Assembly: GCF_019823105.1 (NCBI RefSeq)
Contig: NZ_CP081958.1
Span: forward strand, 930,001-994,000
Direction: 5' to 3'
Length of the DNA stretch: 64,000 nucleotides
Source of the DNA: Halobaculum magnesiiphilum
Lineage (GTDB): Archaea; Halobacteriota; Halobacteria; Halobacteriales; Haloferacaceae
The translations under genes and the position numbers were made by a program. The notes under the pieces were generated by a model, which ran no database searches, had not been told where the DNA came from, and worked only from the letters and a program-made list of their open reading frames with translations. Position 1 is the first letter of the stretch, and every line of letters starts with the position of its first letter. Positions 34,214 to 37,558 of the stretch are shown one piece after another.

Positions 34214-34410
34214 ATCGGTGCGATGTCGCCCCGGGTAATGGCCGTTTCCCCGCAGAACCCGGTGCCCGCCGCTTGGTTCCGCGGGTCCGACGCTCGCCAC
34301 GACGGCGCGGATCGCTGTGGTCACTCGCCTATCGGTCGTCGGTGAATATGTCATAGATACCCTTCAGAAGGCGATCGATTACTAACCGCAAACCGGCCGG
34401 AGGCCGATCC

Positions 34411-36000
34411 GTGAACGGCGAACCGGTCGATCTCGAACCCGGATCCTGCCCGCGGTGCGGCGTGGACAGTTGCCTCACGCGCGGGGCGTTCGAGCACCCA
34501 CAGTGTGGATCCGTGTTCTTCGGGGATCGGCGTCGAGCCCCGTCGGAGTGTTCTCGCTGCGGTCCCGGAACCGCCGCCGAGGTGGTCCGCGTCGGGTCGA
34601 TAACCGAGTGCGTCGGCTGCGGCTACCGGGTCGACACGCCGCTGGCGAGCGACGGTCGAGGTGGGGAGCACGGCCCTGGCGGCGACGAGCCCGGCGGCGG
34701 CGTCGACCGCGCCGTTACGCGGCCCTCGCTTCGGTCGCTCGTGTCCGATGGCGGCCGCGGAAGCGCGACCGTCTGGCGGCGGACGGCCGCGGTCGCCCTC
34801 GCGCTCGTCGTCGTGGCGGCGACGGTGACGACCGCCCTCGCCGTGGGTATCGGCGGCGACCTTCGGATCGGAGCCGGCGGGGCCGCCGGTCCCGCGGCCG
34901 GCGCGTCACTCGACGGACCCGCGACGGCGCCCGACGGAACCCCGGGGGCGACGGCGCCCGGCGTGACCTCGACCGTGCCCGACGGACCCGCGACGGCGAC
35001 GCCCGACCCGGAGTGGCGCGAGTACCGGACGATCGTGGTGTTCCGAAACGACGACCCCCAACCCGGGTACCGACCGGAGGCGATGCGCGCGCTCGATCGC
35101 GTGTTCGTCGAGGAGGACGTTCCCGTCACGAACGCCGTGATCCCGGCGGTGGGGTCCGCGGAGGTCGACCCGGACGGCCGGTTCTGTCGGTACCTCCGCG
35201 AGCGCGCGAGCGAGCATCCGGACCTGTTCGAGTTCGCGACCCACGGCTACACCCACGAGCGGGCGAGCCACTTCCACGGCGGCAGCGAGTTCGGGGACCG
35301 GCCGGCCGCGGAGCAGCGTCGGCGGATAGACCGCGGAACGGCCGCGCTGACGGCCTGCGTCGGCGAGCGCCCGCGGACGTTCGTGGCGCCGATGAACACC
35401 TACGACCGAACGACGACGCGGGCGCTGGCGGACGCGAACTACACGGTCGTCTCCGGGAGCACGTGGTTCACGCGTGCGTACTACGACCGCGAGGGGGCGT
35501 TCCGGGCCGGCGGGCTCACTCACGTCCCGAGTACCGAGGCGTTCATCGCCGAGTGGTCGGCGACCGGCGCGGCGAACGAATCCGGCCGCGAGACGGAGGC
35601 GCGGCTCCGGGCCTCCTTCGACGCGACACACCGGTCCGACAACGCGTCGGTGTACGTCCAGATGCTCCACTATCAGCACTTCACGACGAGCGAGCGGCGA
35701 GCGACGCTCCGTGGGTTCATCGACCACGTTCAGTCGACCCCTGGCGTTCGGTTCATGACGCTCGGCGACCTCGGGGCCGGCCTCGAATCGGGGGCGGTCG
35801 TCCGGACGGACGACGGCTGGCGCGTGAACGACGCCGCCGTCCCCAACGCACCCGAGCGCGGTGACGGGTCGAGCGATCGCGGGTGGGTACCCGAAGGGGG
35901 AACCGACTCCGGGGTCGGACCCTCCGAGGAGCTCGTCGGACCGGCCGCGGCGACCGCGGTTCGGGTGCCGCGCGCCGTCGCTCGCGGAGGCGACTCGTGA
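34411..36000 (+). CDS. Polysaccharide deacetylase-like membrane protein with N-terminal zinc ribbons
   Basis: A 529-residue protein with a GTG start. Residues 11-72 contain CPRC, CSRC and CVGC knuckles (Cys13/16, Cys47/50, Cys67/70), cytoplasmic zinc ribbons. A membrane helix lies at about 125-147, then a Pro/Ala/Thr-rich linker, and an extracellular NodB-like domain from about 205 (FRNDDPQPGYRPE; THGYTHERASHFHGG; APMNTYDRTT). The DD and H-x3-H metal ligands fit a polysaccharide deacetylase, although the family DUF2334 is an alternative. The stop overlaps the glycosyltransferase start (GTGA), so the two are translationally coupled. Confidence 0.8.
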   Translation: MNGEPVDLEPGSCPRCGVDSCLTRGAFEHPQCGSVFFGDRRRAPSECSRCGPGTAAEVVRVGSITECVGCGYRVDTPLASDGRGGEHGPGGDEPGGGVDRAVTRPSLRSLVSDGGRGSATVWRRTAAVALALVVVAATVTTALAVGIGGDLRIGAGGAAGPAAGASLDGPATAPDGTPGATAPGVTSTVPDGPATATPDPEWREYRTIVVFRNDDPQPGYRPEAMRALDRVFVEEDVPVTNAVIPAVGSAEVDPDGRFCRYLRERASEHPDLFEFATHGYTHERASHFHGGSEFGDRPAAEQRRRIDRGTAALTACVGERPRTFVAPMNTYDRTTTRALADANYTVVSGSTWFTRAYYDREGAFRAGGLTHVPSTEAFIAEWSATGAANESGRETEARLRASFDATHRSDNASVYVQMLHYQHFTTSERRATLRGFIDHVQSTPGVRFMTLGDLGAGLESGAVVRTDDGWRVNDAAVPNAPERGDGSSDRGWVPEGGTDSGVGPSEELVGPAAATAVRVPRAVARGGDS

Positions 36001-37511
36001 CCCGAGCGGGCCGCCGATGGCTCCGCCGCGTTCGGAGCGTCGACGGGTTGACCGTCGTTCTGTACCTGCTCGGTGGGGTGCCCTTCGTCGGCGTCTGTCT
36101 GCTCGCGTCGCGGCGAACGATCGCGCTCGCCGCGGTCGGCCTCAGCATCTGCGGCGCGTACCTCGTGTGGTCGCTGTACGTCGTGTTCCGCCGCCCGGAA
36201 CTCGGTCGGCGGTTCGGGGTCGGCGGGCTCGCGTTCATGTTGTGCGTCTGTCTCACGGTCGCGGCCGTCCGTCTCGCCATCCGACCGATCGACGCGGTGT
36301 ACTTCTGTGCGTTCGTGCTCGTCGCGTTCTACTACTGGGTCGTCGGCGCGGCGGCGATCGGGAACGCCGCGGGGGATCTGCCCCCGGTCGAGGACGGGGA
36401 GCTTCCGACGGTGAGCGTCCTCGTGCCGGCGTACAACGAGGCGGGATACATCGCGCGGACGGTCCGGTCGGTGTTGGCCGCCGACTTCGATCCGGCCCGT
36501 CTCGAAGTCGTCGTGGTCGACGACGGCAGCACGGACGCGACGCGGTCGCAGGCGGCGTCGATCGACGACGACCGCGTCCGCGTCGTCACCCGCGCCAACG
36601 GCGGCAAACACGCCGCGTTGAACTACGGACTGTTGTTCGCGTCCAACGACGTGATCGTCACCGTCGACGCCGACACCACCCTGGAGTCGGACGCCCTCCG
36701 CAGGATCGTCGCCCCGCTCGTGGACGACCCGGACGCCGCCGCAGTCGCCGGGACGATCCGCGTGTCGAACCGCGATGGGCTGCTCGGGGGCGCGCAGGCG
36801 CTGGAGTACCTCGTCGGGATCCAGCTCAAACGGCGGCTGTTCGACGCCATCGGCGCCGTTACCATCGTCCCGGGCTGTTTCGGCGCGTTCAGGCGGAGCG
36901 CCCTGGAGTCCGTCGGCGGGTACGACCCCGACACGATGACGGAGGACTTCGACGTGACGATGCAACTGCTGCGGGCGGGACACCGGATCCGGGGGAGCAA
37001 CGGGATCGCCTGGACGGAGGCGCCGGGCACCTGGCGCGATCTGTCGAAACAGCGACTCCGATGGTACCGGGGGAACCTCCTCACGCTGGTGAAACACCGG
37101 GGCGTACTCGGCGAGCCGGAGTCCGGGCTCGTCCACCGGCTCGTGTTCCCGCTGTGGGTCGTGGAGATCACGGTGCTCCCGGCGGCTGGGCTCGTCGTCT
37201 TCGCGGGGATCGTGTGGGCGCTCGTCGCGGGGGCGTGGCGGCCACTCGCCACGATCGTCGGCTTCCTCGGGCTGGTCGTGGCAACCGTCGCGCTCGCGGT
37301 CCGCATCGGCGACGGCGACGAACGGCTGATCCCGCTGTCGCCGTTGCTTGCGGTCGGGTACAAGACCGTGCTGGACGTGCTGTTGGTCCGGTCGCTGTTC
37401 GACGTGCTCGCCGGGCGCTACGTGGGGTGGACGAGCCCGGATCGGATCGACCAACAGTCGGTGCCGGAGGACCCGACCCCCCTCGGAGAACAACCCCGGG
37501 AGGCCGACTGA
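35997..37511 (+). CDS. Processive family 2 glycosyltransferase (PgaC/NodC-like)
   Basis: A 504-residue protein with a GTG start in the four-base overlap. Three or four N-terminal helices (about 15-110) precede the GT-A domain: TVSVLVPAYNEAG, VVVDDGSTDATR, TVDADTTLE (DxD), TEDFDVT and QRLRW (QxxRW), the last two marking processive synthases. Three C-terminal helices follow. Relatives make beta-linked N-acetylglucosamine polymers, chitooligosaccharides or hyaluronan. With the coupled deacetylase it forms a PgaB/PgaC- or NodB/NodC-like pair, probably for an exopolysaccharide. Confidence 0.9.
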   Translation: MTRAGRRWLRRVRSVDGLTVVLYLLGGVPFVGVCLLASRRTIALAAVGLSICGAYLVWSLYVVFRRPELGRRFGVGGLAFMLCVCLTVAAVRLAIRPIDAVYFCAFVLVAFYYWVVGAAAIGNAAGDLPPVEDGELPTVSVLVPAYNEAGYIARTVRSVLAADFDPARLEVVVVDDGSTDATRSQAASIDDDRVRVVTRANGGKHAALNYGLLFASNDVIVTVDADTTLESDALRRIVAPLVDDPDAAAVAGTIRVSNRDGLLGGAQALEYLVGIQLKRRLFDAIGAVTIVPGCFGAFRRSALESVGGYDPDTMTEDFDVTMQLLRAGHRIRGSNGIAWTEAPGTWRDLSKQRLRWYRGNLLTLVKHRGVLGEPESGLVHRLVFPLWVVEITVLPAAGLVVFAGIVWALVAGAWRPLATIVGFLGLVVATVALAVRIGDGDERLIPLSPLLAVGYKTVLDVLLVRSLFDVLAGRYVGWTSPDRIDQQSVPEDPTPLGEQPREAD

Positions 37512-37558
37512 TCGTCCGGCTCCGAAGGGTGAATAGGAGGTGCGGAGGGAGCGGAGGC

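Follow-up and report, generated by a model that had tools for sequence, protein, structure and literature searches.

The window studied here, a stretch of 64,000 nucleotides of the Halobaculum magnesiiphilum genome (contig NZ_CP081958.1, positions 930,001–994,000 of the forward strand), contains a two-gene cassette by which a surface sugar chain is probably built and its acetyl groups are trimmed outside the cell. The explanation that we prefer, with somewhat more confidence than doubt, is a translationally coupled and putatively mobile cassette in which a zinc ribbon docks on a GT2 synthase and a deacetylase is kept at the synthase exit. The GT2 would polymerize a beta-linked chain and export it from the cytoplasm, and a CE4-type deacetylase, held outside by one helix, would strip acetyl groups off the emerging chain. 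The N-terminal double zinc ribbon of the deacetylase would remain in the cytoplasm and dock on the GT2, and the fusion would keep the deacetylase at the GT2 exit.

Organization of the Cassette

The first gene (34411..36000, + strand) starts with GTG and encodes a protein of 529 aa, in which a zinc ribbon, a helix and a deacetylase were recognized using the frame listing, Pfam and alignment. According to the alignments and the structure model, the TackOD1-type double zinc ribbon, which is predicted to be cytoplasmic, occupies residues 1–80 (34411..34650, +). A single membrane helix was found in the structure model at residues 119–144 (34765..34842, +), and the CE4-fold deacetylase domain, supported by Pfam, the model and the alignment, corresponds to residues 202–475 (35014..35835, +). 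A weak TATA-like box (34379..34385, +) was read by eye approximately 29 bp 5' of the start codon. Note that the ARAGORN tool called a tRNA-Glu antisense within the deacetylase coding sequence (35767–35857, − strand), and this call is probably false.

The second gene (35997..37511, +) encodes a processive-type GT2 synthase of 504 aa, counted from GTG 35997, and was delimited using motifs, models and the junction between the two genes. In the ORF list, its start is given as 35883 (frame 35883–37511, +). The deacetylase gene ends with ...TCGTGA, and its stop codon overlaps the likely GT2 start GTG 35997 by 4 nt (GTGA). Of 27 related deacetylase–GT2 junctions, 24 share this 4-nt overlap, with a start codon read there; two others overlap by 1 nt (L055 and L063), and in one (L042) the GT2 start follows the final base of the stop codon by 5 nt. 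Thus, the arginine-rich N-terminus implied by the start at 35883 is probably not translated, and the real GT2 start is probably GTG 35997.

The first-pass annotation of this DNA had described a processive GT2 with DxD, EDFD and QRLRW motifs overlapping a NodB-like gene, with three CxxC pairs ahead of the membrane helix. Both frames are present at this place, and the pairs are C13/C16, C47/C50 and C67/C70. The domains, the overlap and the conservation agree with its proposal of a coupled synthase–deacetylase pair that includes a genuine zinc ribbon–helix–deacetylase protein.

Deacetylase Domain

Matches to DUF2334 (PF10096; 1.8e-20, 73.8 bits against a cut-off of 26) and to Polysacc_deac_1 (2.7e-7, 31 bits against a cut-off of 23.1) were found in the first protein. 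Its structure model was built from 24 sequences and had a mean pLDDT of 68.9; within the deacetylase domain the values were mostly 70–98, with weak stretches near residues 281–300 and 381–390, and the model confidence was low for linker residues 146–188. Comparison of the model with 3rxz revealed the NodB-homology fold (Z 23.3, rmsd 2.6 Å, 233 residues aligned). When the PDB was searched by sequence using the deacetylase alignment, three weak zinc-finger matches were the only result.

Related deacetylases were searched for in 391 genomes of the class, 54 of which contained a match at E ≤ 0.001. Strong matches (E ≤ 1e-45) were found at 35 loci in 34 genomes, and the addition of G049 from another search gave 36 loci. 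The first-pass annotation had named absent metal ligands as an objection to a deacetylase, and this was checked across the homologues. Residues D214, D215, H278, H282 and H420, that is, the Asp-Asp, the HxxxH and the late His that we take, by definition, to be the CE4/NodB-like motif residues, are kept at all 36 loci; with the five residues intact throughout, a dead deacetylase is unsupported. The sequence and the model thus point to a CE4-fold deacetylase with an intact predicted metal site. Two unfused relatives (L068 and L073) have N-terminal twin-arginine and lipobox-like signals, as judged by eye, and with such export-type signals the deacetylase domain would lie outside the cell. The distant deacetylases L072 and L073 have neither the ribbon nor this GT2 nearby. 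A scan of genome contigs with a single protein revealed no relatives, and the scan with the alignment revealed 21 loci, 19 of which were haloarchaeal by title.

Conservation and Classification of the Zinc Ribbon

The ribbon is present in frame at 24 of the 36 deacetylase loci, the window included, where a few residues separate it from a preceding ATG or GTG; at L058, the script picked an ATG further 5', and we placed the ribbon start by hand. A mis-called start, which the first-pass annotation had considered, is ruled out by these 24 loci, each with a conserved ribbon just behind a start codon. In the alignment of the 24 fused proteins, ten ribbon positions are kept in all (C13, C16, E28, H29, C32, G33, C47, C50, C67 and C70), namely seven cysteines, a Glu-His and a Gly. 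The same ten positions are invariant in an alignment of 21 ribbons, 7 of which come from separate genes. The model of residues 11–80 had pLDDT values of approximately 72–86. The ribbon is predicted to bind zinc, and two sites may be formed by C13/C16/C67/C70 and H29/C32/C47/C50.

The Pfam TackOD1 model (PF18551) matched 20 of the 24 fused proteins at E ≤ 5 (best 2.3e-9), at approximately positions 83–162 of its 188. For the window protein itself, there was no PF18551 match at E ≤ 5, and the cut-off of 32 bits was not reached. The fused homologues in G075 and G393 exceed this cut-off, as do the separate ribbons in L057, L069, L076, L077 and L078; for the separate ribbons of L005 and L068, no PF18551 match was found at E ≤ 1. 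A model made from only the 7 separate ribbon genes recovered 14 of 14 fused test ribbons and detected the window ribbon at 1.7e-8 (E-values computed for 1000 sequences). These sequence comparisons identify the ribbon as a short domain of the TackOD1 type, and the homology to TackOD1 is family-wide. In its description, attributed to Galperin and colleagues, TackOD1 serves archaeal response regulators as their output domain, occurs also in type IV pilus loci and has an obscure function (PMC5847659).

Larger TackOD1 proteins were rejected as further GT2 partners: no GT2 of this kind was found at E ≤ 1e-6 in any of 18 loci (L080–L090 and L119–L125), and one more locus, L091, has only 27–28% GT2 matches located several kb away. 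Many of the haloarchaeal TackOD1 proteins at these 18 loci are approximately 330 aa in length. The L057 protein, which is related to the larger TackOD1 proteins, has a weak Mrr-like C-terminal match.

Association of the Ribbon with the GT2

The GT2 gene is located directly 3' of the fused ribbon–deacetylase gene in 24 of 24 cases. In addition, a separate ribbon gene (T) adjoins the GT2 gene (G) in 11 loci, with or without the deacetylase gene (D). The order is T-D-G in L057 and L069, D-T-G in L005 and T-G-D in L068, and seven loci are T-G with no deacetylase nearby (L076, L077, L078, L114, L116, L117 and L118). Three of the latter, L116, L117 and L118, were found by a ribbon-only search, and their genomes have no deacetylase match. 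The genomes of L076, L077, L078 and L114 contain a ribbon-less deacetylase elsewhere (L012, L049, L047 and L045), and G393, the genome of L078, also holds a fused copy. In L076, the ribbon stop codon and the GT2 ATG overlap by 4 nt, and in L077 and L078 they have one base in common. Judging by these arrangements, the partner of the ribbon is more likely the GT2 than the deacetylase; gene neighborhood is no proof of ribbon–GT2 contact. One separate ribbon, L079 (G105), breaks the ribbon–GT2 pattern; it appears to be a truncated copy of the N-terminus of the fused ribbon–deacetylase gene of its own genome, and there are no GT2 or deacetylase matches nearby.

The first-pass annotation had proposed that the fusion would let a cytoplasmic signal reach an outer enzyme. 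In this view, the ribbon would sense a metal, a redox state or a ligand and switch the deacetylase via the helix. The ribbon, helix and deacetylase do form one polypeptide at 24 of 36 loci, and TackOD1 is known, from the same description, as a response regulator output domain in archaea (PMC5847659). However, signaling via the helix is less likely because the separate ribbon sits with the GT2, at seven loci without a deacetylase nearby. Moreover, 12 of the 36 family deacetylases lack a fused ribbon, and a single helix followed by the low-confidence linker (residues 146–188) would be a poor conduit. We consider such signaling quite unlikely.

A census of the GT2 in the 391 genomes gave 51 matches at E ≤ 1e-70, of which 24 had a fused ribbon, 10 had a separate ribbon and 17 had no recognizable one; thus, such a GT2 can do without the ribbon. 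The ribbon-less group comprises two GT2–deacetylase pairs (L043 and L044) and 15 other loci, in which neither a deacetylase of this family (1e-5) nor a ribbon (E ≤ 0.5) was found; a GH26-like protein is present in one of the 15. The 17 ribbon-less matches would be consistent with a ribbon that is only a structural cap or a membrane-insertion aid and has no link to the GT2, the neighborhood being merely operon organization, and in haloarchaea zinc ribbons commonly serve as small structural modules. Still, across several rearrangements the separate ribbon genes have kept their place beside the GT2, and in L076, L077 and L078 they overlap its start; in addition, E28, H29 and G33 are invariant beyond the paired cysteines. 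We consider a purely structural role unlikely and prefer docking of the ribbon on the GT2.

At four of the 15 loci with neither ribbon nor such a deacetylase (L147, L150, L151 and L152), the end of a ribbon-less GT2 gene is overlapped by the gene of a different exported-looking protein. Two of these proteins were scanned and both match Polysacc_deac_1, so the GT2–CE4 pairing seems to recur.

A wider generalization is possible, though we hold it with more doubt than confidence: short TackOD1-type ribbons may act in the cytoplasm as partners dedicated to the polysaccharide synthases of archaea, comparable in position to the bacterial PilZ or PgaD modules, and this would be the first function for TackOD1. 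The module would then have been fused to the deacetylase in one haloarchaeal clade, and a receiver–TackOD1–GT2 frame hints at phosphorelay control. This single frame of 472 aa was found in G633 from another archaeal class (L153:2014-3429, G633:C86) and contains a receiver (1.7e-18), TackOD1 (9.4e-30), a hydrophobic stretch and the beginning of a GT2 (1.7e-9), which is cut short and covers the first ~40 positions only. The G633 assembly is incomplete (81% complete, 230 contigs), and a misassembly is possible. The full receiver–TackOD1–GT2 frame was sought in 119 relatives of G633, but no match covers it whole, and the other matches are mostly to the receiver part. Since the GT2 is truncated and no full copy was found among these relatives, we regard the putative fusion as a lead only.

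GT2 Synthase and the Predicted Polymer

The GT2 matched Glycos_transf_2 in Pfam (3e-34), and all 20 homologues in the alignment have the DxD, EDFD and QRLRW motifs unchanged. Among solved structures, the best matches of its model (pLDDT 84) were an archaeal mannosyltransferase (Z 31.7) and hyaluronan synthase (Z 31.5, rmsd 2.5, 368 residues aligned), which were tied; BcsA was also matched, both in the E. coli complex (Z 29.7) and in 4p00 (Z 28.6, rmsd 5.0, 412 residues aligned). Taken together, the sequence and the model show the catalytic motifs and membrane architecture of a processive BcsA/HAS-like GT2, and polymer synthesis is predicted. The top curated NCBIfam family was PgaC/IcaA (TIGR03937), but membership in it was rejected, as the score of 176.5 bits is far under the cut-off of 422.3. 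Membership in NodC (TIGR04242) was likewise rejected (83.2 bits against a cut-off of 550).

Bacterial PgaBC and NodBC pairs make deacetylated amino-sugar polymers. The polymer of the cassette need not be of this type, because in other species the ribbon and GT2 genes often have the gene of a GH26-like hydrolase as a neighbor. An exported-looking GH26-like protein was found in 15 loci (L005, L042, L043, L044, L055, L056, L060, L068, L076, L077, L078, L114, L116, L117 and L118), among them all seven T-G loci, and its gene is often transcribed divergently from the ribbon, GT2 and deacetylase genes. In a Pfam search across 38 genomes, 15 of 20 GH26 matches adjoin these genes. GH26 enzymes mostly act on beta-mannans. 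Both an amino-sugar chain and an acetylated mannan-type chain are possible products.

These hydrolases, together with the mannosyltransferase tied for the best structural match, would fit a GT2 whose product is a short glycolipid, a mannan-type chain or a glycan linked to protein, from which the CE4 enzyme removes O-acetyl groups. On the other hand, NCBIfam ranks PgaC/IcaA first among the curated families, albeit under its cut-off, and no Pfam GH26 match was found in the window genome. We consider this variant quite unlikely and retain the polymerizing GT2 with its deacetylase at the exit as the preferred explanation.

Evolution and Insertion Site

Phylogenetic analysis revealed that the fused form corresponds to one GT2 clade (24 rows, support 100/99), which was recovered in all 200 bootstrap trees of the 37-row analysis. 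The clade holds in the 52-row GT2 tree, in which the two T-D-G loci are no longer both beside it: L069 stays (93/84) and L057 joins one ribbon-less GT2 (99/98).

In the window, the two genes are the only content of an insertion of 3,303 bp (34254..37556), which is flanked by the genes of an enoyl-CoA hydratase and an AMP-ligase. The closest genome of the same genus (AMP-ligase 97% identical) aligns up to 34253 and resumes at 37557, with ~74 bp between these points. The hydratase adjoins the ligase in 9 of 10 same-genus genomes, and in the other one, G010, no hydratase was seen there. The deacetylase was found in none of these ten genomes; in one of them, G003, a GT2 homologue without the ribbon lies at another place. 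Gain of the cassette by transfer is the simplest reading, the alternative being its loss in the other genomes, and the cassette appears to be mobile and to move as a unit. In addition, an HxlR-receiver regulator and a receiver-kinase protein (L067:5292-6362 and L051:4678-5892) recur near the fused pair, at 12 and 17 loci, respectively.

Comparison with Known Systems

The matrix polymers of haloarchaea and the enzymes acting on them are little characterized. A search of the open-licence literature revealed no paper linking a short TackOD1 ribbon with a deacetylase or a GT2. In the accessible part of a paper on Natrialba magadii, Nmag_2045 and Nmag_2046 appear as separate entries, one a polysaccharide deacetylase and the other a glycosyltransferase, and that part mentions neither their pairing nor a ribbon (PMC3403918). 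These adjacently numbered genes are probably the L065 homologue of the window pair. A haloarchaeal exopolysaccharide that is already known, that of Haloarcula hispanica, is the product of other glycosyltransferases encoded in a cluster, and the word deacetylase is absent from the accessible text of the corresponding paper (PMC5467301). The association of a short TackOD1 with a GT2 across several gene orders offers a testable role for this domain, which may control a polysaccharide synthase of archaea from the cytoplasm or dock on it, and places it in a small cassette that appears mobile as a unit.

The ribbon resembles TackOD1 (PF18551) in the core of that domain, as the 20 matching fused proteins indicate. 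It differs in covering only ~80 of the 188 positions and in its setting, either as part of a membrane deacetylase protein or in a gene of its own beside a GT2. PgaC/PgaB and IcaA/IcaB consist of a membrane GT2, the poly-beta-1,6-GlcNAc synthase, and an extracytoplasmic CE4-type deacetylase. The window pair is likewise a GT2 with a CE4-type deacetylase, but its deacetylase is of the DUF2334 type and has an N-terminal zinc ribbon, and its host is an archaeon. NodB and NodC are a coupled CE4 deacetylase and GT2, and the NodC model does match the window GT2, below its cut-off; we know of no membrane-anchored ribbon in NodB. By analogy, the pair may work like PgaBC or NodBC, with a GT2 that belongs, by the cut-offs, to neither PgaC nor NodC.
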